Shown here piece by piece: positions 4,933 to 18,846 of a stretch of DNA of 64,000 bases. Source of the DNA: Nitrosopumilus ureiphilus (lineage in GTDB: Archaea; Thermoproteota; Nitrososphaeria; Nitrososphaerales; Nitrosopumilaceae); NCBI RefSeq assembly GCF_013407185.1, contig NZ_CP026995.1:685578-749577 (forward strand). The letters are read 5' to 3'. Each line of letters starts with the position of its first letter. Position 1 is the first letter of the stretch. A model generated the notes under the pieces. That model was given only the letters and a program-made list of their open reading frames with translations. It was not told the origin of the DNA and made no database searches. Made by a program: the position numbers and the translations under genes.

Positions 4933-5337
4933 ATGGGTGAGGCTTTTGTTTTAATTAACTGTGAGCCTGGTAAAGAACCATTAATACTTGAACAATTACG
5001 AAAAATAGAAAACGTATCTGAAATTCAAGGAACCTATGGTATCTATGATATTGTAACTAGAATAGAATCTGATAACCAATCCCAACTTGACAATATAATT
5101 TCAGACCAAATTCGGAAACTAGACTATGTTAATTCCACTCTGACACTCATTCCTACTGACGAACACGAAAGTAGCCTTTCAGATTTAATTCCGGACATAA
5201 TGCCTGATGTGATACCTGAACAAAAAAAACCTTTGGGAGGACCATTTTCAGAAGAGGGAGAAGATGATTTTGATGAAGATTATGATGAAGATTATGATGA
5301 TTCGACAAAACTAAATCAGTTTAGAAAAAAGGGATAA
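4933..5337 (+). CDS. stand-alone Lrp/AsnC ligand-binding (RAM) protein with acidic tail
   Basis: Residues 1-78 are a complete RAM/AsnC C-terminal domain (AFVLINCEPG... GTYGIYDIVTRIE... STLTLIP) without the DNA-binding half. The remaining 55 residues are a Pro/Asp/Glu-rich tail ending in Asp-Tyr-Asp-Glu repeats and a basic tip. RAM domains form dimers and higher rings and bind amino acids in Lrp proteins. It is followed one base later by an uncharacterised gene, so the two are probably cotranscribed. Ligand and partner are unknown. Confidence 0.8.
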   Translation: MGEAFVLINCEPGKEPLILEQLRKIENVSEIQGTYGIYDIVTRIESDNQSQLDNIISDQIRKLDYVNSTLTLIPTDEHESSLSDLIPDIMPDVIPEQKKPLGGPFSEEGEDDFDEDYDEDYDDSTKLNQFRKKG

Positions 5338-5995: not shown

Positions 5996-6107
5996 ATTCC
6001 CTCAGGACGAATATTCCATTCACACAGATATTCTAATACCATAATGACTAAAATTTTTCCTGATTCAAAATCAGTCATAACGGCACTTTCCATACGTGAG
6101 GGAATTC
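5994..6107. repeat. 114-bp element bounded by 11-bp inverted repeats
   Basis: GAATTCCCTCA at 5994-6004 is exactly repeated as TGAGGGAATTC at 6097-6107. The left arm overlaps the stop codon of the preceding gene. The enclosed bases contain a minus-strand open frame of about 30 residues (start 6093) that runs on into the neighbouring gene antisense and is probably not a protein. A transcript hairpin, a terminator or a tiny mobile element are all possible. Confidence 0.4.
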
Positions 6108-6166
6108 CTCAATTCTTGAAAATTAATTTCTGATCCATAGTTACACTGACAGTAGGATAATTATTC

Positions 6167-6258
6167 GTAGTAATCTGCCAAACTCAAGCACCAGTCCATT
6201 GACCGTGTACCCATCGTTACTCTGTTTTTCCTCGATGTTTTCTTTGGTTGATTACTAC
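6167..6258 (+). repeat. inverted-repeat element, copy 1 (family of three)
   Basis: The ends GTAGTAATC (6167-6175) and GATTACTAC (6250-6258) are perfectly complementary. The interior shares AAACxCAAGCACCAGTCxxTTGAC and GATGTTTTCTTTGGTT blocks with copy 2 (8002-8089) and, on the other strand, with copy 3 (16046-16135). The terminal stem differs between copies but stays paired. It lies in the 445-base gap before the TFB region; apart from it and the preceding inverted repeat I see nothing else there. Confidence 0.6.
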
Positions 6259-6440
6259 TGAAATTGGTACGAGAAAATAAAATAAAAACTAGACGATAAA
6301 AATAATGAATATATGTTTAATTTTTTCACAAAAATAAACTAAATTATTAGTTTAGATAACTAATTCCAATTCTCTAGAATTAGAACATTTAGTTTGTTAC
6401 CTCTTGCTAATTAGGTCTCTCTAATTTTCAATCACTTTAA

Positions 6441-6643
6441 ATGAAATTTTGTTGTAATTATAATGTGAGAATTTGTTCATGTGGCAAATGTGGTAAAGAA
6501 TTAGAAATTCAAAAAAATGTTTTTCATACAAAAAGGCCATTAAATTTCAATGTGTACAGTGTTACTATTCAACATATGGCCAAATCTCTTTTCAGTACAA
6601 TATGCAACTTGTGGCGACATCTATTGAAAGGTGTTTAAAATGA
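6441..6643 (+). pseudogene. possible remnant of a transposase N-terminus (zinc ribbon)
   Basis: An ATG frame at 6441 encodes CSCGKCGKELE and then drifts into non-protein-like sequence. An overlapping frame from about 6500 to the TGA at 6641 reads KFQCVQCYY...SIERCLK, which resembles the second zinc knuckle and first helix of DDE transposases. Joined by one frameshift they make a plausible zinc ribbon. It ends abruptly where TFB begins. I rate this a guess; a decayed insertion sequence fits best. Confidence 0.3.
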
Positions 6644-7536
6644 TTATGCCATTTATGCAAGATGAAAACACTTGCATTCATTTAACAATTATATCTGATG
6701 ATACAACTGGGGAGCAGGTTTGCGAAAATTGTGGGCAAGTACTAATTAATAATGTGGTAGATTATTCTACTGATGGATTTAATGAAAATTTCAATAATGC
6801 AAGAACAGGCCCTAAAATATCCATTACAATGTATGATGGGGGTCTTTCCACAGTAATTGGAAAACATAATTTTGATTCTTCTGGTAAGGCAGTATCTCAT
6901 GAAATGAGAAGAAACATTAACAGAATGAGAATGTGGGATTCTAGAACCAAATCTAATTCTACTGCTCACAGAAATCTAATGATCGCACTTTTGGAGATAA
7001 ACAAGATTAAAGAAAAAATGTCCTTATCTGATGCAATTATTGAAAGATCTGCATATTTTTACAGAAAAGCATCTGAAAAAAAAATGATACGTGGAAGATC
7101 AATCAAAGGAATTGTTGGAGCATGCATTTATGCTGCATGCAGGGAATTAGGAACTACTAGAACTATTATTGAAATTTCAAAATGCATGCATGAGAAAAGA
7201 AACATCATAGCAAAAAGTTATCGATTGTTATTCCAACAGCTAAGTCTAGAAATATCTATTCCAGATCCAACTTCAAGCATAATTAAATTTTCCAATAATC
7301 TAGAATTATCTGAGAAAATAAAACGAGATGCAATTTTTATCTATGATACTCTAAAAGAGAAACAAGTTATTGCAGGGAAAAAACCAGGAGCTGTTGCAGC
7401 TACAGTTGTGTATATGGCCTGCATTAAAAATAATCAAGGTATATCACAACAACAAATATCCAAAATATCAGGTATAACCCAAGTAACCATTCGTAATAGG
7501 TTTAAAGAATTTAAACAATATGTGCAACTAATTTAG
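6640..7536 (+). CDS. tfb: transcription initiation factor B (TFB)
   Basis: A 298-residue TFIIB homologue that bridges TBP-bound TATA DNA and RNA polymerase. The N-terminal zinc ribbon has ligands Cys12, His14, Cys28 and Cys31; two cyclin folds follow (about 95-190 and 200-295), the second ending QQQISKISGITQVTIRNRFKEF, the BRE-reading helix-turn-helix. I chose ATG 6640 because an AAAGGTG Shine-Dalgarno lies 7 bases upstream; GTG 6631 is the alternative. The region between ribbon and core is degenerate relative to the usual B-reader, as often seen in additional TFB paralogues, so it may be a specialised factor. Confidence 0.88.
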   Translation: MIMPFMQDENTCIHLTIISDDTTGEQVCENCGQVLINNVVDYSTDGFNENFNNARTGPKISITMYDGGLSTVIGKHNFDSSGKAVSHEMRRNINRMRMWDSRTKSNSTAHRNLMIALLEINKIKEKMSLSDAIIERSAYFYRKASEKKMIRGRSIKGIVGACIYAACRELGTTRTIIEISKCMHEKRNIIAKSYRLLFQQLSLEISIPDPTSSIIKFSNNLELSEKIKRDAIFIYDTLKEKQVIAGKKPGAVAATVVYMACIKNNQGISQQQISKISGITQVTIRNRFKEFKQYVQLI

Positions 7537-7680
7537 AAATTTGATAAATCATTTATTGTAATATTATTATAAAAAATATCTCCACAGAGATTTAAACCAA
7601 AACCCTTACTCCTAAAAGTTTGGTGAACATCTCACTATCAAAAGTTTGGAAAATAGAAGATTTGAATTATTACAATCAGT

Positions 7681-7779
7681 TCATTTTAAAAATAATACTA
7701 ATGCTGCAAGAGCTGCAATCACTCCTACAAAAATCAAGGTATTTCTAACACTATGATATCCTGTAATCAATTCACTCAT
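7681..7779 (-). CDS. 32-residue single-pass membrane miniprotein
   Basis: Starts at ATG 7779 (MSELITGYHSVRN) and is followed by one 19-residue hydrophobic helix, ending Leu-Lys. The composition, with a polar amphipathic head and a clean transmembrane helix, argues that it is real although very short. I recall very similar miniproteins from other thaumarchaeal genomes but cannot verify this here. Function unknown. Confidence 0.5.
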   Translation of the reverse strand: MSELITGYHSVRNTLIFVGVIAALAALVLFLK

Positions 7780-7865
7780 AATCCCATACTCTAATAATGA
7801 AATTTAAACTACAGGTGTTTTTTTCTTTAAATTTATTTAGTAAAGTTGTAAAAAATCAAAATAAT

Positions 7866-7979
7866 TTAACATGTTGTATCTGTTTCTTCATATTGATTAC
7901 AAATCCTAACACTGGTTATTCCTACAACTTTTGAAATATTTTGTTGAGGCAGATTTACACCAGTTTTGATAATTACCAT
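7866..7979 (-). pseudogene. 3' fragment of a TFB gene
   Basis: This 37-codon frame (first ATG 7979) reads GVNLPQQNISKVVGITSVRI and then CNQYEE, which aligns residue for residue with the C-terminal helix-turn-helix of the intact TFB nearby (GISQQQISKISGITQVTIRN). The upstream parts of the gene are missing and a TAG closes the frame just before. It is therefore a remnant of a second TFB, left beside the surviving one. No independent function is expected. Confidence 0.6.
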
Positions 7980-8001
7980 CCTGACCCTGTAGATAATCTA
8001 A

Positions 8002-8089
8002 GCAGTAATCTTGTAAAACCAAGTATCAGTCATTTGACTAATTTTTATTGATACCGTTTTCTCTCTTGATTTTTTCTTTGGATTACTGC
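8002..8089 (+). repeat. inverted-repeat element, copy 2
   Basis: The ends GCAGTAATC (8002-8010) and GATTACTGC (8081-8089) pair perfectly. Relative to copy 1, one stem pair has changed T-A to C-G on both sides at once, a compensatory change. The internal blocks AAAACCAAGTATCAGTC and TTGATTTTTTCTTTGG match copy 1. It lies between the TFB remnant and the AbrB-like gene. The rest of the 7537-8233 gap holds the two short frames listed above. Confidence 0.6.
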
Positions 8090-8233
8090 CGCACAATATT
8101 AGTTCATTGTGAAATAAAAGCTACATTTGAGAATAATGTACATTTGTTTAATTTTTTTTATTATTATTGAATAATTTCAAGGCATTATGTGATAATAGTA
8201 ATTTTTAGATATCATAAAATACCATATTTCTAT

Positions 8234-8401
8234 ATGGTAAAAACAACCAAACTTATCAAACAAACCAACGGGGTGTATAAAATAGAAATTCCAGAAGAGG
8301 ATATATCTGAACTTGGTTGGAGAAATGGATATGTTCTAAAAATAGATGCAGAAAGTAATAGAATAATTATTGAAAAATTAAGTGGATTTATGGGAAAATG
8401 A
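8234..8401 (+). CDS. AbrB/MazE-like swapped-hairpin DNA-binding protein
   Basis: Starting at ATG 8234 the 55-residue product (MVKTTKLIKQTNGVYKIEIP...) has the AbrB-like pattern: a strand, the V-Y-K-I-E-I-P turn, a short helix E-D-I-S-E-L-G-W, then two strands ending I-I-I-E-K-L. Such proteins dimerise and bind DNA as antitoxins or transition-state regulators. An earlier in-frame ATG at 8189 would add 15 residues unlike the fold. No toxin gene is adjacent; the next gene encodes a membrane protein. Confidence 0.6.
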   Translation: MVKTTKLIKQTNGVYKIEIPEEDISELGWRNGYVLKIDAESNRIIIEKLSGFMGK

Positions 8402-8442
8402 TTTAATTAAATCATTTAATGTTGTGTTGTTATTAAAAAATA

Positions 8443-9129
8443 ATGCAAAGGGATAGACTAACTGAATGGTTTGTTCCAAAATTTGGTTCTAGAAATTTTA
8501 GATTATTGATAGGAATTCTGTTTTTACCCTATACTGGAATGGTGGTATCATTTTCTATATTGGGATCTCTTTCAGTAGAATTTAGCCTTGTTCGATTAAT
8601 ATCCATCTGTGTATTGTATTTTTTTGCAATAGGAATATCTGCACATTGTCTTGATGCTTTAGGAAGCAAGAAAAAACCTTGGGGAGACATATCCAAGTCA
8701 AAGCTATGGTTTGCATCAATAATTTCTTTAATCATTGCTTTTTCAATAGGGCTGTATTATGCGTTTTTAGATTCTTGGCTATTGTTTCCCATAGGAATAG
8801 CAGAAGGGTTTTTTCTTTTTGCATATAATCTGGAATTATTTCATGGTAAATTTCACAATAACATATCATTTGTAATCTCCTGGGGAATTTTACCAGTTTT
8901 TGCAGGAGCTGTGATTCAATCAAACACCATATCGTCTGAAACCATAGTTTTTTCTATAATTGCAGGTATTGCAAGCTATATTTTGATTACTACATCTAGA
9001 AAATACAAAGAATTAAGACAACAAAATGCAAATTACCAAAAATATCGTAAAAAGGAAATTATTCTCAAGTTCACAAGTTCAATCATAATATTTGGCACAA
9101 TTTTCTTTTTTGTTTTCAGGTATCTTTAA
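8443..9129 (+). CDS. UbiA-like polytopic membrane protein
   Basis: A 228-residue protein with about six or seven hydrophobic helices. The loop after the second helices (SAHCLDALGSKKKPWGD) and a second loop (FAYNLELFHGKFHNN) sit where the two Asp-rich motifs of UbiA prenyltransferases would be, but the Asp residues are largely replaced, so catalysis is doubtful. Neighbours favour the assignment: a UbiC-like gene follows after 23 bases and a UbiE-like gene lies just beyond. It could instead be a non-enzymatic relative. Confidence 0.5.
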   Translation: MQRDRLTEWFVPKFGSRNFRLLIGILFLPYTGMVVSFSILGSLSVEFSLVRLISICVLYFFAIGISAHCLDALGSKKKPWGDISKSKLWFASIISLIIAFSIGLYYAFLDSWLLFPIGIAEGFFLFAYNLELFHGKFHNNISFVISWGILPVFAGAVIQSNTISSETIVFSIIAGIASYILITTSRKYKELRQQNANYQKYRKKEIILKFTSSIIIFGTIFFFVFRYL

Positions 9130-9152
9130 TTCAGTAAACAAGACAATATTGT

Positions 9153-9590
9153 ATGAGTATGTCTTCTGAAGATTTGTTACAAAGGATATTGGATGCTCCT
9201 GTGGGTCAGGTAGTCACTGTTCTTGGAGAGGCTCTTAACTGTAACATACGTCTGCAAGTAGTAGAACAAAACACTGTTGCGCCTAATCAATTTGTGAGAA
9301 AGGTTGCAATTACTGCACAGGGATTGCCCGTGATAAAGGCTTATGTGAAATTTGACTCTAGGGTTTTGCCTGAATTTATTTTAGATGATCTTTTAAAGAA
9401 AAAACGCGGTGTTGGGACCATTCTCAATGTTAATGGGATTAATGCCTCCAGAAATGTCATATCATTGAACCGAAATCCAGATGAAAATAAGGTGACAAGA
9501 GAATACGAAATTATTCATAACAAAACAATTTGGTTTACCATATTGGAAGAAATAAGACTAGGAAATCTTGGTTCCAACAATAATAGTTGA
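9153..9590 (+). CDS. chorismate-lyase-fold (UbiC-like) protein
   Basis: The 145 residues follow the chorismate lyase/UTRA pattern: an arginine at the start of a strand (FVRKVAITAQGLPVIKA), FDSRVLPEFILDDLL, a glycine-containing loop (KKRGVGTIL) and a C-terminal strand with Glu (WFTILEEI). UbiC uses an Arg, a Leu/Gly loop and a Glu at corresponding places to eliminate pyruvate from chorismate. A paralogue lies at 14025. Ligand and activity are inferred, not shown. Its last 33 bases overlap the convergent methyltransferase gene. Confidence 0.55.
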   Translation: MSMSSEDLLQRILDAPVGQVVTVLGEALNCNIRLQVVEQNTVAPNQFVRKVAITAQGLPVIKAYVKFDSRVLPEFILDDLLKKKRGVGTILNVNGINASRNVISLNRNPDENKVTREYEIIHNKTIWFTILEEIRLGNLGSNNNS

Positions 9591-10241
9591 AGTATTCCAT
9601 GTCAATTCTTTTTTGAATATTTTTAATCCATATTTTTTCATAGTCTCTTCGTATTCTTTTACCCAATTAGTATCTCTTATCATGCGAGGTAAATCAATAA
9701 AGACCTGTTTCCAATTGGGAACAAAAAATCCTGCAAAATAAAGTAACTTAAAGTAAAAATTCCACAATTTTCTTACAAATAGATTTGTTGGATATGTAAA
9801 ATCATGTAAAATTATTTTTCCACCTACCTTGAGATGATCAATGCAGTTTTTAATCAGAACTTCAGATATGCAATATTTTGACAAATATGATGCAGTAATA
9901 CAATCAAACTTTTCATCCAGATTAAGTTTTTCAGCATCTTGATTTACAAAAGAAATATTTTCATATACAATTAATTTTTCTTTTGCTTTTTCAAGATATT
10001 TTTTAGTGATGTCAACACCTATTATTTTCACGTTTGGAATTTTATTTACAATTTGTTCTGTTAGGATTCCAGTGCCACAAGCAAGATCCAACACAGTTTT
10101 CTCAGTCAACAATTGTTCTACAATTTTATGTTTCCAAACATTATCTTGTCCAAAAGTAGTCAGGTGTACTATTCTATCATAGGAACTGGCAGTATTGTTA
10201 AAAAACGTTGGAACAAAATCTTTGGGACGTTTTTTAATCAT
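9558..10241 (-). CDS. UbiE/MenG-type class I SAM methyltransferase
   Basis: The N-terminus FFNNTASSYDRIVHLTTFG and WKHKIVEQL is the distinctive UbiE/COQ5/MenG opening, followed by motif I LDLACGTG (about 52-59), an acidic strand end (IIGVDIT) and the LKVGGKIILHDF block. In quinone pathways this enzyme C-methylates the prenylated ring as the last step. Length (227) is normal. It converges on the UbiC-like gene. I consider demethylmenaquinone methylation the likeliest role, with another small-molecule substrate possible. Confidence 0.7.
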   Translation of the reverse strand: MIKKRPKDFVPTFFNNTASSYDRIVHLTTFGQDNVWKHKIVEQLLTEKTVLDLACGTGILTEQIVNKIPNVKIIGVDITKKYLEKAKEKLIVYENISFVNQDAEKLNLDEKFDCITASYLSKYCISEVLIKNCIDHLKVGGKIILHDFTYPTNLFVRKLWNFYFKLLYFAGFFVPNWKQVFIDLPRMIRDTNWVKEYEETMKKYGLKIFKKELTWNTSTIIVGTKIS

Positions 10242-10337
10242 GAAATTTATTGAAGTTTTTGTTTAAAGTAGTTTATGAATAGGTATATGTTAAAGGATTT
10301 TTTGAAGATTTTTTTTAAAAAATACGCTTGGGAATTT

Positions 10338-10478
10338 TTATCCGCCTGTGGCTGCGTCAAACAACGCACATTCACACTTATCTCGTTCCCCACAATAGGG
10401 ACACTTGCAATGACAATGGGGTAATGAATTTTTGCATGTCTGACAACAAGTGTATTCTTCTATTTCCTGTTTTAACAT
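10338..10478 (-). CDS. 46-residue Cys-rich zinc miniprotein
   Basis: Begins at ATG 10478 after a GGTGAGGAG Shine-Dalgarno and carries nine cysteines in CCxxC, CxCxCxxC and CxC clusters (TCCQTCKNSLPHCHCKCPYC). A close paralogue lies at 10867-11013. It follows the RAM gene by 7 bases on the same strand, so the two are probably cotranscribed. A metal-binding role is evident; its partner is unknown. Confidence 0.6.
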   Translation of the reverse strand: MLKQEIEEYTCCQTCKNSLPHCHCKCPYCGERDKCECALFDAATGG

Positions 10479-10485
10479 AATCTCC

Positions 10486-10725
10486 TCACCCTTGCCCCTC
10501 AATTGCCATAAGCGTTAATGTATTTCTTATTGTAGGCAACTTGCGAATTTTCCATGTAATGTCTTCACGTAATTCTTTTACGTCTTTATTTGCAACTTCG
10601 ACAATAATGTCATATGCCCCAAATGTTCCATGAGCCTCATTCACTGATTTCATACTGCGTAATGCAACCAGTGTATCCCCTTCATGTCCTAAATCACAAT
10701 TGATTAAAACATATGCTTTTTCCAT
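10486..10725 (-). CDS. stand-alone RAM (Lrp/AsnC ligand-binding) protein
   Basis: The 79 residues are one complete RAM domain: AYVLINCDLGHE, GTFGAYDIIVEV and a C-terminal NTLTLMA strand, with no HTH. It is very close to the domain encoded at 15385-15624. The gene for a Cys-rich miniprotein starts 7 bases downstream. As in other one-domain RAM proteins it probably forms dimers or octamers and senses an amino acid; what it controls is unknown. Confidence 0.8.
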   Translation of the reverse strand: MEKAYVLINCDLGHEGDTLVALRSMKSVNEAHGTFGAYDIIVEVANKDVKELREDITWKIRKLPTIRNTLTLMAIEGQG

Positions 10726-10866
10726 ACATTATTCATTTGTGCACATCTTATTTTAATTCCTCAAAAAAATATCTTAGATGTTTTTAAAAAAATAGAGTAT
10801 TTCTGAATGAATTTTAAGTAAAAAAAATTTACATTTAATTTTCATGATGCAGTATATCATATTAAC

Positions 10867-11013
10867 ATGAGAGAAGATTTTGCAGAATATACAAAATGTG
10901 ACGGATGCAATGCAGCATTATTGTTATGTGATTGTAACTGTCCAAAATGTGGCAAAAGAGAGAATTGTAATTGTAATCTAAAACCAATCAAATGGAGTGA
11001 TGTTATATGCTAA
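10867..11013 (+). CDS. 48-residue Cys-rich zinc miniprotein, paralogue of 10338-10478
   Basis: Reads MREDFAEYTKCDGC...CDCNCPKCGKRENCNCN, matching the minus-strand paralogue in cysteine spacing and in the EYT lead-in. Its stop codon lies inside the 8-bp duplication made by the adjacent TnpB element, so the insertion landed exactly at the end of this gene and left the coding frame whole. Metal binding is likely; function unknown. Confidence 0.55.
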   Translation: MREDFAEYTKCDGCNAALLLCDCNCPKCGKRENCNCNLKPIKWSDVIC

Positions 11014-11016
11014 AAG

Positions 11017-12267
11017 GGTCCTGTCAAGTTATAGGGACATAAATTTACTTTTTTCAGTATTACAGTATAACTTTCAATAATTTAAGACAGTAAACATCAG
11101 TTAACGATGCAACAGGCTACCAAATGTGTTTGGCAGTTTCATGATAAAAAAGATGAGCTAGCAAATGTCTTTAATTATTTCAGATTGTGTACAAATGAGG
11201 CTATTCGTATCTCAGATGAAAAAAATATAACTTCACGCAATACAATGCACCACGAACTGTATGAACATCTCAGGAATAATTCAGATTTTTATGCAAAATA
11301 TGTTCATGGATCCCTGTCTGTTGCAAAAGCAAGACTCAAACTATACCGTGCAACCAAAAAGAAAAAACCAAATGCAAACAGGCCCTATGTGAAAAGAGAC
11401 ATGATAACACTTGACAACCAGTCATTCAAGATTATTGATGGATACCTAAGATTCCCAATCAGGGCAAAGCAGTACCTCTTTGTCAAACTTGCGTCATATG
11501 TAATGGAGCAGATAGAAAACACAAAGTTAGGCTCAATTACTCTGACTCCTGAAAAATTAATCATATCATATTCCAAAGAGATCATACAAAGTGCGCCAAA
11601 AGATTTTGTAGGAATTGACAGAAATCTTGAGAATGCAACGAGTTATGACAGTATGGGCAAATTCATGTTTTATGATCTAAAAAAATCAAACGGCATCAAA
11701 CAAAAATACAGGGAGGTGAAATCTCACTTTAAAAGAAATGATGCAAGGATTAAAAAGAAATTATTTACAAAGTATGGCAAGAAGGAGAAAAACAGAGTAC
11801 ATCAACTGCTCCACAATGTCTCAAAGAGGATCACATCACAGAATCAGTGAGTCATTTTAGAAGACATAAAGGGAATCAGAAAATTGTATAGAAAAGGAAA
11901 CGGCCAGGGTAAAAAGCATCGTGGCAAAATGAACACATGGAGTTTTTATGAATTGCAGAGACAGATTGAATACAAAGCTAAATGGGCAGGATTACCAGTA
12001 AAACATGTCAAAGCACATGGCACGTCATCAAAGTGTGCGGTATGTGGGTCAAAACTAGTACCCGAAGAGCACCGAATGATGAGATGTGTCATGTGTAAGA
12101 TTCTTATCAACAGGGATGAGAATGCAGCCAAAAACATTTTGGCCAGAGGGTTGAGGTTCGACCCCAACGCACCGCAAGTTGAAGCAATGAAGCAGTTCAA
12201 AGATGCAGAGTCGATTGTGACGAGTCAGGAAGATGGACAAATTATGTCCCTATAACTTGGCAGAACC
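11017..12267 (+). mobile_element. TnpB-carrying transposable element with inverted termini and 8-bp target duplication
   Basis: The outer 26 bases of each end (11017-11042 and 12242-12267) are inverted copies with two mismatches, starting GGTCCTGTCAAGTTATAGGG on the left. GCTAAAAG flanks the element on both sides (11009-11016 and 12268-12275), a perfect 8-bp direct repeat. Typical IS200/IS605 TnpB elements lack inverted termini and do not duplicate the target; this structure instead resembles a DDE-type element such as IS6. Only a tnpB pseudogene is inside, so it must have been moved in trans. Confidence 0.8.
11107..12255 (+). pseudogene. tnpB: tnpB (RNA-guided nuclease family) with one in-frame stop
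   Basis: A 382-codon frame broken only by TGA at 11848-11850. The N-terminal helical/WED-like part ends near residue 190; RuvC-I lies at FVGIDRNLENATSYDS, RuvC-II at VILEDIKGIRKLYRKGNGQGK (just after the stop), then a CAVC...CVMC zinc finger and RuvC-III RDENAAKNI. All three acidic positions survive. A few residues before the stop also appear lost compared with the family. The CDS ends inside the right inverted terminus. No TnpA is present. Recently inactivated copy, or expressed as two halves. Confidence 0.85.
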
Positions 12268-12438
12268 GCTAAAAGACATAACGTGTTAGTTAGCATAAAA
12301 TAAGTCAAACAAAGATGACGACTGTATGAATTTACCTTTAATTTAAAATCTATAACATAAAACCAGGAATTTTAAACGATTTTACTAAAACAGAACAACA
12401 CATCATAAATCATACAAAAACAATACTATATCAATAAA

Positions 12439-12735
12439 TTGACATTGTTTGAATTTCAAATTATGTTTGGATTAGTCATGATTCTAATTTTAGTTCTGCT
12501 TGGAATAAAGAGTTTAGGTGATAAAAAGAAAATAATTGATGATGAAAAAGCACTAAAAATAATCAATGAGGCATTGGAAAAAAATGGGTATGATAATTTT
12601 GAATTAGAATCAATTGTGTCTATGAGTGAGCCAAACATTACTTCTGTAATTGTCAATATAGGCTATTTACAAATCGCATTAGAAATTGACAATAATTCTG
12701 GAAAAATTCTAAATACTGAAAAAATAGTCAGATAA
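12439..12735 (+). CDS. membrane-anchored PepSY-like small protein
   Basis: A 98-residue product with a TTG start, an N-terminal transmembrane helix (about 5-24) and a soluble part that reads like one PepSY repeat (ALKIINEALEKNGYDNFEL... LQIALEIDNNSGKILNTE). PepSY domains inhibit or shield partners outside the membrane. A TATA-like ACTATATC lies about 17 bases before the start. No partner gene is adjacent. Confidence 0.5.
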   Translation: MTLFEFQIMFGLVMILILVLLGIKSLGDKKKIIDDEKALKIINEALEKNGYDNFELESIVSMSEPNITSVIVNIGYLQIALEIDNNSGKILNTEKIVR

Positions 12736-12754
12736 TAATATAATTTAAGAAATT

Positions 12755-13198
12755 CTAGAGTAATCGGTCATCTTCTTTTACTGTAGTCAATACAATGTTA
12801 GTTATAGTATTAGTTACATTTTGTACAGTAGACAAGTTCTTTACAAAACTGCTCATAGTTTTCCTATCTTTGAATTTTGCAATAACTAGCGTATCTGCAT
12901 TGCCAGTAATGTCATACACTGCAACCACATTGTCTTGTTTTGCAATCTCATTTTCAATTTCCAACATCTTTCCATCACTGGTTTTGATTTCAATGATTGC
13001 TGTAATGTCATACCCAAGCATCTCATGATCAAGGCGAACAGTGTAACCTTGAATGAGCTTGCACTCTTCAAGTTTTTTTATTCTTGAAAGCATGGTAACA
13101 GTTGACACGCCTAATCTAAGAGCCAGTTGTCTTGCTGATTGTCTAGCATCTACTTGTAGCAATTGGAGAATTTTGATATCTTTTTCATCCATTTCCAC
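12755..13198 (-). CDS. full-length Lrp/AsnC-family transcription regulator
   Basis: The 147-residue product has the N-terminal winged HTH (DEKDIKILQLLQVDARQSARQLALRLGVS... IKKLEE) and a C-terminal RAM domain. It is the only RAM protein in this stretch with its own DNA-binding half, among five that lack one. It could act alone or form mixed oligomers with those. It is divergent from the unknown gene at 13303, whose promoter it may control; this is inferred. Confidence 0.85.
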   Translation of the reverse strand: MEMDEKDIKILQLLQVDARQSARQLALRLGVSTVTMLSRIKKLEECKLIQGYTVRLDHEMLGYDITAIIEIKTSDGKMLEIENEIAKQDNVVAVYDITGNADTLVIAKFKDRKTMSSFVKNLSTVQNVTNTITNIVLTTVKEDDRLL

Positions 13199-13302
13199 AC
13201 TATACTATAGCTTTACAAATATTTAACAATATTGAATAATTTTGTATACATTTAATGTATCAAAATGAAATACCTTATAATTGTCTAAAGATAACTGTAA
13301 TC

Positions 13303-14016
13303 ATGACAATGCTACTGGCATATGATCCAATCTTGGAAAAACTCCAAAAGCATTTTGAAACACATGGGATCAAGGCTGCCGTATCAGAAGAGAGATATGA
13401 TTTTGAAGGAGACTTTCTTGACTCGTATCTGCTAGAAACAAAAGGCGGAATTGGAAACGCAGGCACTCTAAAATTAGATAACTCGTCAATTGACTATGTC
13501 CATGTTTTAAAAAAACAAGAATATGTAAAGTGTGACTATGCAGCTGGAGGTCACGTAGGAATGGGAATGCACAAGCATTCATGGTGGATGATGAGATTCT
13601 TTTTGGCATTTCCAGAACCAATTAATCTAGGCCCATTTAACATAGGAACAATCACTACCGTAAAGAAAGGACTGTTTCATTCAGAGGTAGAGAGTTTTAT
13701 GTGGAATGGATATCAAAAACTCACCACATTACCTCCAGGATTAATACGGGACAACGTAGTTGAACAATTAGATCGGGATCAACGATTGCAACAATTAATG
13801 ACAAAGTGTTTGCTTAAAGAAAGAACAATTCTCATCTCAAGATATTCTCCACCAAAGGAATCAACAAGATTGAAATCAAACTCAAAAATACTAATTACAT
13901 CAAAATGGAAGATTCAAAAAGATCTTTTTGTAGATAAAAATACTTTGGACATGTATGAAAGAATGGCAGAGATTGTAAAACAGACAATTAACAATCTGAA
14001 ATACCATTTATTATAG
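13303..14016 (+). CDS. conserved hypothetical protein, operon partner of a UbiC-like gene
   Basis: A soluble protein of 237 residues from ATG 13303; an ATG at 13255 would add 16 residues, but a TATA-like TATAATTG near 13269 points to the later start. It contains GGHVGMGMHKHSWWMMRFF, a His/Met/aromatic stretch, and no family I recognise. The gene stops 8 bases before a UbiC-like gene, so they are almost certainly cotranscribed. Divergent from an Lrp regulator. Confidence 0.65.
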   Translation: MTMLLAYDPILEKLQKHFETHGIKAAVSEERYDFEGDFLDSYLLETKGGIGNAGTLKLDNSSIDYVHVLKKQEYVKCDYAAGGHVGMGMHKHSWWMMRFFLAFPEPINLGPFNIGTITTVKKGLFHSEVESFMWNGYQKLTTLPPGLIRDNVVEQLDRDQRLQQLMTKCLLKERTILISRYSPPKESTRLKSNSKILITSKWKIQKDLFVDKNTLDMYERMAEIVKQTINNLKYHLL

Positions 14017-14024
14017 GAGACAAA

Positions 14025-14504
14025 ATGTTAGCATCACAATATGAAACAAAAGACCCCATGATACAAGAAATGCTTGATGCACCACTGGGTCACATTGTAA
14101 CTGCATTGGGGAACCATCTTAATTGCAAAATAAAACTAGAGTTAATAGCGCAAAATACCCCAAAACCGGGTACAGAATTTGAAAGAAAGATATTAGTCAC
14201 TGCAAATAATCTGCCCCTAATCAAGGCAATCATAAAGTTTGACAGAAAAATATTGCCCGAGTCCATAACAAGTCAGTTATTACAAAAAAGAAGATTGGTA
14301 GGAACCATTTTGAATCTAAATAATATCCCAAATGATAAAAATATCACTTTCTTTAATGTAGAAAAAGAGAAGATATCAAGAGAATATCAAATAAAAAATG
14401 GCAAAGATATTTTCTTTGAGGTTTCTGAAGCGATTAGAACAGATTACATCAATGTGCTTAGAAAAGAATTTGGAGTGAAGGGAACCAAAACTAAATCATC
14501 TTGA
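14025..14504 (+). CDS. chorismate-lyase-fold (UbiC-like) protein, second copy
   Basis: A 159-residue paralogue of the 9153-9590 product. Both share the opening MLDAPLGHIVTALGxxLNC, the arginine strand (FERKILVTANNLPLIKA), FDRKILPESI, the RRLVGTIL loop and a closing strand with Glu (VSEAIR). The Lys-rich tail of about 20 residues is extra. Two related copies a few kilobases apart, each beside different partners, suggest divergent ligands. Enzymatic activity is unproven. Confidence 0.55.
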   Translation: MLASQYETKDPMIQEMLDAPLGHIVTALGNHLNCKIKLELIAQNTPKPGTEFERKILVTANNLPLIKAIIKFDRKILPESITSQLLQKRRLVGTILNLNNIPNDKNITFFNVEKEKISREYQIKNGKDIFFEVSEAIRTDYINVLRKEFGVKGTKTKSS

Positions 14505-14511
14505 ACTAGTT

Positions 14512-14616
14512 TTAAGACTCTATCCACCCATCACAGGACATACATATTATCATCCCGTCTTCATTTTCATAACTTTTAGAGCCTGGAGGGCATTCACATT
14601 TTCTAATTTCATCCAT
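14512..14616 (-). CDS. 34-residue zinc miniprotein
   Basis: ATG 14616 to TAA 14512, encoding MDEIRKCECPPGSKSY and then CMSCDGW. Two Cys pairs 17 residues apart could hold one zinc. The frame has protein-like composition but is very short. Function unknown. Confidence 0.4.
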   Translation of the reverse strand: MDEIRKCECPPGSKSYENEDGMIICMSCDGWIES

Positions 14617-14751
14617 ACAATTAAGACGTATTTGTCTTATTATAATAAAAATTGTTTATTCTTAAAAGATGTTTAATTAATTGAAGATTATTTGACAGTT
14701 TTTTAGAATTTGAGTGAGTAACGATAAATCAAAGATCAACCAAATAAACAC

Positions 14752-14838
14752 ATGGAAGACACAATAAAAGATAAGGAAAAAGACAAGGAAAAATTCAAAG
14801 AGCGAATTGCAAAAGGCGAAGTGCTGGCATTTACTTGA
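14752..14838 (+). CDS. possible 28-residue charged peptide
   Basis: ATG 14752 to TGA 14838 gives a peptide made almost entirely of Lys, Glu and Asp in its first half (KDKEKDKEKFKERIAKGE), predicted to be helical. It lies in an otherwise empty stretch between convergent genes. It could be a real small protein or a chance frame in A-rich DNA. Confidence 0.25.
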   Translation: MEDTIKDKEKDKEKFKERIAKGEVLAFT

Positions 14839-14846
14839 GAAACAAA

Positions 14847-15377
14847 CTATCTTGAAAAACCCTGATTATTTACAACGTTAATTGTAATTGTGGATTTGAT
14901 TTCAGAAATCTTTCTAATTTTGTTGCTGACAATTTCTGAAATATCATTATATGTAGGGGATACAATCTTGCATGTTATATCATAGTTGCCAACTAATATG
15001 TCAGCTTCTATTACTTCTGGTATCTGCTCCAAGATTGTAAGCACCTTGGATTCGTTAGCCTTTGTGCAATGGATGATGACAAAAGCCTGAGCCATATGTT
15101 CATCAAGAACTTTTTGTTCAATATTGTTAGTTTTTGAGATACCTGGTTTTTTATCTACAAACAATGTTAGAGTGGACCTTATGTTTGGTATTTTTCTTAT
15201 TCTATTTGTAATATCATAAAATATGTTTTCTTCATTATCAGAAATTAGTTTGGCGATGATATCATAGCTTCCAAATGTTCCAAACGCATTTACGATACTT
15301 GGGATGTTTTTTAAATGAAAAATTATTGAATCTTCTGTTCCTGCTTTATTGAGAATTAGGACATAGGCTTTTATCAT
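14847..15377 (-). CDS. tandem double-RAM protein
   Basis: Two RAM domains in one chain: residues 1-82 (KAYVLILNKAG... GTFGSYDIIAKL... STLTLFV) and about 95-172 (AQAFVIIHCTKAN... GNYDITCKIV... STITINV). No HTH. It starts 7 bases after the one-domain RAM gene upstream on the same strand, so the two are cotranscribed and may assemble together. The same two-domain architecture occurs at 16747-17271. Confidence 0.8.
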   Translation of the reverse strand: MIKAYVLILNKAGTEDSIIFHLKNIPSIVNAFGTFGSYDIIAKLISDNEENIFYDITNRIRKIPNIRSTLTLFVDKKPGISKTNNIEQKVLDEHMAQAFVIIHCTKANESKVLTILEQIPEVIEADILVGNYDITCKIVSPTYNDISEIVSNKIRKISEIKSTITINVVNNQGFSR

Positions 15378-15384
15378 AATATGT

Positions 15385-15624
15385 CTATGATTGTCCTGGA
15401 ATTGCCATCAAGGTAAGAGTAGAACGTACATGTTCAAGTTTTCGAATATTATGAATAATTGTTTCACGAATTTTTTCTCTTTCAAAATTCTCGATTTTGG
15501 CAACAATGTCAAACGCACCAAAAGTACCATGAATTTCTTTTACAGAATCCATGCGCCTCAGTTTCTCTATCACATCCATCTCAGCACCAAGATCGCAATT
15601 AACTAAAACATAAGCAGTATGCAC
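15385..15624 (-). CDS. stand-alone RAM protein
   Basis: The 79-residue product begins AYVLVNCDLGAEMDV and keeps the GTFGAFDIVAKI and STLTLMA strands of a RAM domain. It matches the domain at 10486-10725 in length and most key positions, including the terminal PGQS/EGQG. It is the first gene of a two-gene operon with the double-RAM gene at 14847-15377. Confidence 0.8.
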   Translation of the reverse strand: MHTAYVLVNCDLGAEMDVIEKLRRMDSVKEIHGTFGAFDIVAKIENFEREKIRETIIHNIRKLEHVRSTLTLMAIPGQS

Positions 15625-15747
15625 AAATCAATTCAGCAAAAAAAATATTTAAGCGAAACTATGAAAAAAATCAAAATATGTTAAATTTTTCTATTAAAAA
15701 CTAAATAATGTAATGTATTTTTTCATTATTACTTACATTATATGCCA

Positions 15748-15897
15748 TTACGAATATAGGATAAATGGTAATTTGTCTTTGATGTGAGAAGTGGGATTAG
15801 AACATTGTCCACATTTTGGACGAATGATTTCAACATCATAGTCAACTTCACCGATTGCTTTACCTACAGACAGAGCATGATGACGACTTTGTATCAT
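15748..15897 (-). CDS. 49-residue small protein with a CxxC
   Basis: ATG 15897 to TAA 15748. The product reads MIQSRHHALSVGKAIGEVDY and then RPKCGQCSNPTSHIKD. One CxxC and nearby histidines could bind a metal or form a disulfide. The codon pattern is protein-like, with Lys and Ile enriched as in neighbours. Family not recognised. Confidence 0.4.
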   Translation of the reverse strand: MIQSRHHALSVGKAIGEVDYDVEIIRPKCGQCSNPTSHIKDKLPFILYS

Positions 15898-16045
15898 GTA
15901 TATTCAAACCATAATTAGTAAGACACCATTCTCAATAAAATAGCAGATCATGAATGAAAATCTATGAAATATTCTGGCAAAAAATTAAAAAATTGTTTAT
16001 GATTTTCTCAATACTGTTTTTATGTCATGATAACATGTTTTCTGC

Positions 16046-16135
16046 AGATAGTAATCAACTAGTAAAAACATCAATGATGTTGGAACCAGAACACAGAGTT
16101 GTCATTGGATAACTACTTGGTTTTGATTACTATCT
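16046..16135 (-). repeat. inverted-repeat element, copy 3
   Basis: The ends AGATAGTAATCAA (16046-16058) and TTGATTACTATCT (16123-16135) pair over 13 bp. Read on the minus strand, the interior begins AAAACCAAGTA and contains ATCCAATGAC, aligning with copies 1 and 2. A second stem position has changed G-C to A-T on both sides, a further compensatory change. The rest of 15898-16196 shows nothing I can name. Confidence 0.55.
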
Positions 16136-16196
16136 CATTTTTCTGCAATTCACAACATCGATTCATCAATACTTTTAAAACTCTCGAAATATTCTG

Positions 16197-16746: not shown

Positions 16747-17271
16747 TTATTCTTGTTCATTGACAACCTGTAATGTCATGCTAGTTTTGATCTTTGGTAA
16801 TTCACGTATGGCCTTTGTCAGAACGTGCTCTAATGTATTATTATCTAAGGCCTCAACTTTACAAATAACATCATAAAACCCAAAAACCACATCGGCTTCT
16901 TTCACCTCAGGTATGTGGCTAAGATTTTTCAATGTGGGATATTCTTCTCCCTTATCACAATGAATTACAACATATGCTTGAGCAAGATTTTGTCCAAGCA
17001 TAGCTCCAATTAATTTCTCAGATGCTTGAAATAATTCCTCTGATTCCGAACGAGTCAAGGTTACTGTGGATTGAATTTTTGGCATTTTACGTATAGTTCC
17101 AGTAATAATCTCTCGAATCTTCTCTTCAGAATCTGATTCCACTTGTACGATTATATCATAAAGACCAAGCGTTCCATGGGCTTCTTTTACACCTTCAATT
17201 TTTTTCAGTGAAGAGATGACTTCTTTTTCAGAACCCAAATTACAGGTCATCAGGACATAGGATCTTGCCAT
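16747..17271 (-). CDS. tandem double-RAM protein
   Basis: Two RAM domains: 1-78 (RSYVLMTCNLGSE... GTLGLYDIIVQVE... STVTLTR) and about 95-172 (AQAYVVIHCDKGEE... GFYDVICKVE... TSMTLQV). The linker begins with a helical stretch also present at 14847-15377, so the two proteins are paralogues. It has no DNA-binding domain. With the others this makes five HTH-less RAM proteins within about 12 kb. Confidence 0.8.
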   Translation of the reverse strand: MARSYVLMTCNLGSEKEVISSLKKIEGVKEAHGTLGLYDIIVQVESDSEEKIREIITGTIRKMPKIQSTVTLTRSESEELFQASEKLIGAMLGQNLAQAYVVIHCDKGEEYPTLKNLSHIPEVKEADVVFGFYDVICKVEALDNNTLEHVLTKAIRELPKIKTSMTLQVVNEQE

Positions 17272-17376: not shown

Positions 17377-17559
17377 TCAAGGGTTTCGGGGTGTCTCGGA
17401 GTTTTTTCGTTTAACTGACTCCATAATGGTTTCCTTTGAATAATCAATTCCATGTTCATTATTCATATGCTCCCAAAAATCAAAAACTATTTTCTCAGCA
17501 TTTCCTTTGGAAACATAATTGCACCCAAAACCATACTCACGACACCTAAGATTTGCCAC
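17377..17559 (-). CDS. DUF1059-type small protein
   Basis: The 60-residue product has the family layout: a short N-terminal strand with Cys (NLRCREYGFGCNYV), a helix that binds the next strand (AEKIVFDFWEHMNNEHGID) and a charged tail. DUF1059 proteins are small, soluble and of unknown function. The two cysteines and the EH...EHG histidines are conserved features that could bind metal. The family call is from memory of the motif. Confidence 0.65.
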   Translation of the reverse strand: MANLRCREYGFGCNYVSKGNAEKIVFDFWEHMNNEHGIDYSKETIMESVKRKNSETPRNP

Positions 17560-17667
17560 AATATCTGTATCACTACATAAAATAAAAAGATCATTTTAAA
17601 AATTCCAAAATTTGTTATCTTTTTTGGATTAAATTGAATAGTTGTAAAGATAAAACAGAACAGGTTT

Positions 17668-18722: not shown

Positions 18723-18846
18723 TCCCAAGCGAAGGAATTGAACCTTCGACAACCCGGTTTCTGTATGCCTGATATGCTGTTATTCGGTCAGCCATCTAAA
18801 GCCAACAACTACAGCCGGAAGCTCTACCAGGCTGAGCTAGCTTGGG
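18723..18846 (-). tRNA. tRNA-Tyr (GTA) with a 50-nt intron
   Basis: The minus strand folds as a cloverleaf: acceptor CCCAAGC/GCTTGGG, D stem GCTC/GAGC, anticodon stem TCCGG/CCGGG with loop CTGTAG-A giving anticodon GTA, T stem GAAGG/CCTTC around TTCAATT, and discriminator A at 18723. The anticodon loop is split after position 37 by an intron at 18759-18808, the standard archaeal site; CTGT in exon 1 can pair with ACAG in the intron, as a bulge-helix-bulge cut by the splicing endonuclease requires. The CCA end is not encoded. Confidence 0.9.

Follow-up and report, generated by a model that had tools for sequence, protein, structure and literature searches.

The 64,000-nucleotide stretch of the Nitrosopumilus ureiphilus genome analysed here (the window) contains three intergenic elements of about 90 bases with perfectly complementary ends, and the question that they raise is whether they are mobile DNA, protein-binding hairpins or genes for a structured RNA. 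Inspection of the sequence confirmed the elements at 6167-6258, 8002-8089 and 16046-16135 (copies 1, 2 and 3). As the initial annotation had stated, the terminal arms are perfectly complementary in all three, and where the arms differ between copies the changes are paired on both sides. The pattern AGTAATC-N55..85-GATTACT had exactly three matches in the 2.17 Mb genome, one per element, and a control pattern had none. The interior motifs described as shared are approximately alike, but copy 1 reads AAACTCAAG and copy 3 is without CAGTC..TTGAC.

Homologues in the Nitrosopumilaceae

A nucleotide search of 61 genomes returned four relatives, all from the same genus, and a covariance model (R1) built from these and the window copies had matches in 62 of 250 genomes of the family at E≤0.05. 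A second model (R2), built from 75 members, had matches in 50 of 221 genomes of the order at E≤0.001, all but one of them within the same family. Covariance-model searching of relatives' genomes, which the initial annotation had proposed, yielded about 100 relatives in the Nitrosopumilaceae (Nitrosopumilus, Nitrosarchaeum and others); two positive MAG records carry the label Nitrososphaeraceae. Positive genomes hold between one and five copies, and N. ureiphilus itself holds five, the three in the window and two more at about 531.5 and 533.4 kb. The distribution is patchy: with more permissive filters, at least one copy was present in 23 of 38 near-complete Nitrosopumilus-like genomes and none was found in the other 15. 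Because the large genome searches used strict filters, their number of genomes lacking a copy is an upper bound. A longer variant (about 157-160 nt) with a central insertion was also seen (L077:3052-3208; C77, C86 and C88 of genome G174; C116 of G068).

No Rfam 15 family matched the window elements at gathering thresholds, and none matched the elements in six other loci at E≤1, where the sole match (psRNA6, E 0.27) lay elsewhere in locus L024 and was unrelated to the element. There was no Rfam match to a C/D or H/ACA guide RNA, and the corresponding boxes were not seen by eye. We found no description of this RNA in the literature, although an earlier mention in the N. maritimus genome paper or in ocean small-RNA surveys is possible.

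Fold, strand and promoter

The common fold is a three-way junction formed by the terminal stem (P1), a variable stem (P2) and a stem capped by UCANNGGA (P3). Among the 75 members, the P1/P2/P3 model paired 90.7% of cells (80.9% when shuffled) and the covariation score was 0.348, compared to 0.181±0.007 for shuffled controls (0/500) and at most 0.131 for slid controls; the members are phylogenetically non-independent, and the alignment leans towards the model because it was fitted to it. Double-sided changes occurred in 19 of the 23 pairs across these roughly 75 aligned homologues, which bears out the earlier proposal that the stem is under selection. Because joint alignments (A3, A5) misaligned P2, two subtypes were aligned separately with MAFFT (A7, A8), without fitting to the model and with structures read off one member. 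Covariation exceeded the control in A8 (0.207 vs 0.112, 0/500) and in A7 (0.168 vs 0.133, 0/500). Copy 3 belongs to the A7 subtype, where an extra helix, P3a (AACCA/UGGUU), had all cells paired.

G·U pairs outnumbered A·C on the proposed strand by 65:9 in P1 and 84:4 in P3 (149:13 together), a bias seen on one strand only, and folding energy was lower on the proposed strand in 74 of 77 members. The putative RNA is thereby read from the minus strand for copies 1 and 2 and from the plus strand for copy 3. The orientation given in the initial annotation is that of the non-transcribed strand and was ruled out as the RNA strand by the G·U bias, the promoter and the T-run. Near-reverse-strand matches (29-37 bits with R1) were shadows arising because the stem is palindromic, and they were removed from alignment A6.

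In 70 of the 75 members a TATA-like sequence (TTTTTATTTCAT) begins 28-31 nt upstream of the first P1 base, and ahead of it lies a conserved box, AAAA-TAAACAAATNTTNA-NNATT. In archaea the TATA box is located some 25-30 nt upstream of the transcription start, and the 5' end of the RNA would therefore be at P1. At the other end, a run of at least four T within 16 nt after P1 was present in 55 of 75 members; control windows further downstream contained one in 10-22 of 75. The family has its own promoter at a fixed distance and a putative terminator, although about a quarter of copies, among them copies 1 and 2 of the window, have a short T-run or none. U-tracts are described as determining the efficacy of archaeal termination (PMC8716108).

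The specificity of this promoter was assessed with a weight matrix and a gapped pattern, a fixed-spacing pattern with three mismatches having been uninformative. Over 382 kb the matrix matched 68 members and nine other sites, one of which is an RNA copy (L040, at 531.5 kb) and six of which lie upstream of DUF1059-like small proteins, the one encoded at 17377-17559 in the window among them. Four matches to the gapped pattern were found in the N. ureiphilus genome, at copy 2, at the DUF1059 gene of the window and at two sites without evident relation. The DUF1059 gene and its promoter occupy 17377-17616 on the minus strand (gene 17377-17559; box and TATA 17580-17616), and the box AAACAAATGTTCAT is common to promoters of the RNA family and of DUF1059 genes. 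This promoter type appears to be nearly private to these two groups, and from the shared promoter only we infer that DUF1059 genes may be co-regulated with the RNA. DUF1059 genes of several relatives also carry the box and TATA of the RNA family, some of them far from any RNA copy.

These observations bear on whether the elements act as DNA. A regulatory-region DNA element, either a cruciform or an inverted repeat bound by a protein, would fit the highly conserved, near-palindromic sequence of P1 and its position near promoters of regulators, but G-U replaces A-C on one strand only, P2 and P3 covary while their sequence changes, and the orientation of the promoter is fixed; we regard such a DNA element as very improbable. 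The initial annotation had left a structured RNA and a protein-binding hairpin side by side, and the data favour RNA over a DNA hairpin because the G·U bias is one-stranded, a TATA precedes P1 and T-runs follow it.

The elements also resemble MITEs, or other mobile elements bounded by their own inverted repeats, in being short, intergenic and multicopy, with inverted ends and a patchy distribution. Unlike MITEs, they belong to a conserved unit that exceeds the ends, reaching about 65 bases past one terminus and through the promoter; the copies have diverged with compensatory changes, and in another genus one subtype is flanked by the same neighbours in many genomes. Target duplications were not visible on inspection of the three window copies. 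A mobile origin of this kind is extremely unlikely, and both it and the DNA-only inverted repeat were rejected as readings of the elements. What the sequences strongly support is a structured RNA family, predicted to be transcribed from its own promoter.

TFB genes and the three window copies

An association with TFB genes, absent from the initial annotation, was seen in the present analysis. About a fifth of the RNA copies adjoin the start of one TFB clade; 12 aligned members lie directly upstream of an open TFB frame and others upstream of interrupted ones. Among 46 genomes surveyed, nine full-length TFBs reached ≥67% identity to one query, and every one of them had the RNA ending next to its start, as did one further TFB at 51% identity. 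In N. ureiphilus the TFB at 533.5 kb was the only one with an RNA leader among the TFB loci scanned, the other TFBs of the same genome showing none. Genome G000 has eleven TFB genes, with an intact RNA leader before only one. Copies linked to an intact TFB keep both the T-run and the spacing to the start.

By sequence, copies 1 and 2 are of this TFB-linked type, with their TFB genes decayed. Copy 1 (RNA 6155-6264, minus strand; P1 ends 6258 and 6167; 97.6 bits with R1, 84.2 bits with R2) has P1, P2 and P3 intact and a promoter at 6277-6325 on the same strand (upstream box TAAACATATATTCATTATT, TATA TTTTTATTTTAT), and its T-run is lost. Directly after it lies a decayed N-terminal TFB fragment (6049-6144, minus strand; 44% identical by tblastn to the TFB of a relative, E 0.002) whose start region aligns with TFB starts. 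Copy 2 (RNA 7990-8095, minus strand; P1 ends 8089 and 8002; 92.4 bits with R1, 64.3 bits with R2) has P1 and P3 intact, a weak P2, a degenerate T-run and a minus-strand promoter at 8112-8150 (AACAAATGTACATTATT...CTTTTATTTCA), and it is followed by a C-terminal TFB remnant (KTGVNLPQQNISKVVGITSV...) at 7859-7980 (minus strand; tblastn 64% identity, E 4e-10). It is syntenic with TFB-linked copies of relatives, opposite the same small DNA-binding-like gene; in the window this gene (8189-8401, plus strand) is divergent from copy 2 and its product has no Pfam match, and in relatives it lies across the RNA from TFB. Between copies 1 and 2 is an intact TFB paralogue (6631-7536, plus strand) that has no RNA leader and is 53% identical to the leader-linked clade. 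Copy 3 (RNA 16042-16145, plus strand; P1 16046-16135; 89.7 bits with R2, E 9.5e-14; alignment A7) is an intact stand-alone gene of the stand-alone subtype, with TTTTT after the element and a plus-strand promoter at 15979-16028 comprising an AT-rich upstream box and the TATA TTTTTATGTCAT at 16017-16028.

With decayed TFB fragments downstream of them and the T-run gone, copies 1 and 2 may be decaying relics of TFB leaders, leaving copy 3 as the only functional copy in the window. The T-run is lost in exactly these two copies, the TFB-type copies with a decayed TFB, and the weak P2 of copy 2 points the same way; against this, their promoters, P1 and P3 are intact and show paired changes relative to homologues. 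Such decay is compatible with a small-RNA family, and we judge it quite possible, if somewhat short of an even chance.

Several other genes in the region deserve mention. A cluster of proteins of the AsnC/Lrp ligand-binding type that lack the DNA-binding domain surrounds the RNA copies (4933-5337, 10486-10725, 14847-15377, 15385-15624 and 16747-17271), the assignment being by Pfam for 15385-15624 and by resemblance for the others; two members have a tandem double domain. A TnpB-like gene with a Cas12f1-like TNB domain (11107-12255, plus strand) is split into two ORFs and apparently decayed. A TnpB guide RNA was rejected as a reading of the elements, as these split ORFs adjoin no copy and no TnpB recurs in the flanks of relatives. 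A tRNA at 18723-18846 (minus strand) was missed by ARAGORN; its Rfam match spans 124 bases, with an intron-sized insert.

Possible roles and known systems

Were the RNA primarily a cis-acting TFB leader (a riboswitch or attenuator), the stand-alone copies would be orphans that outlasted a lost gene, or leaders of unrecognised genes. The RNA does stand right before the ATG in every full TFB of one clade, with T-run and spacing kept, and copies 1 and 2 precede TFB fragments. However, most of the 75 members, copy 3 included, have no common downstream gene, and conservation is high in the two stand-alone subtypes (mean column identity 86%), which show compensatory changes of their own. We consider a primarily leader-type function doubtful.

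The explanation that we favour, with a probability of roughly 0.6, is a non-coding RNA gene with its own promoter that would act alone and in places has become a TFB leader or attenuator. Each element would be the gene of a non-coding RNA of roughly 90-100 nt, with transcription starting at the 5' strand of P1 and stopping at the T-run to release a stable RNA. The stand-alone RNA would act independently, probably in complex with a protein, and the regulator of the RNA would also control DUF1059 genes. At TFB-linked loci, the TFB gene starts at most about 20 nt from P1, and TFB would therefore be produced only when transcription passes the folded RNA and reads through the T-run; the RNA would serve there as a cis attenuator. 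Stand-alone copies would be independent small RNAs and TFB-linked copies would double as attenuators; it is the stand-alone copies that suggest a role in trans. The patchy distribution, and the short or missing T-run in about a quarter of copies, speak against this explanation. A further suggestion, which we think improbable, is an RNA-based circuit that governs the choice of basal factor, in which one transcription component (TFB or a regulator) is bound by stand-alone and TFB leader RNAs alike. If true, the RNAs would behave like 6S or 7SK RNAs, and the family would titrate or sense the very TFB that it precedes as a leader.

How the numerous TFB paralogues of marine ammonia-oxidising archaea are controlled is poorly understood, and descriptions of regulatory RNAs from these organisms are few. 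The present RNA family, which covaries, has a promoter class dedicated to it and occurs both alone and leading one TFB clade, offers a testable handle on regulation in hosts that rank among the most abundant cells of the ocean. Its covariance model can serve to annotate the RNA in existing genomes and transcriptomes. The family resembles independently transcribed archaeal sRNAs that end at a U-tract in having its own promoter, a TATA at the expected distance, a compact fold and a T-run end, but differs from them in forming a large family that covaries, in having a dedicated upstream box and in the fusion of some copies to a TFB gene. Like riboswitches and leader attenuators in 5' UTRs, the TFB-linked subset has a conserved fold and a T-run directly before the start codon; unlike these, the copies are mostly stand-alone and have no Rfam match. 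A small structured RNA tied genetically to a basal initiation factor (TFB) also recalls 6S and 7SK-type RNAs, which act on the transcription machinery; the likeness lies in this genetic tie, and binding of the RNA to TFB or the polymerase would be speculation.
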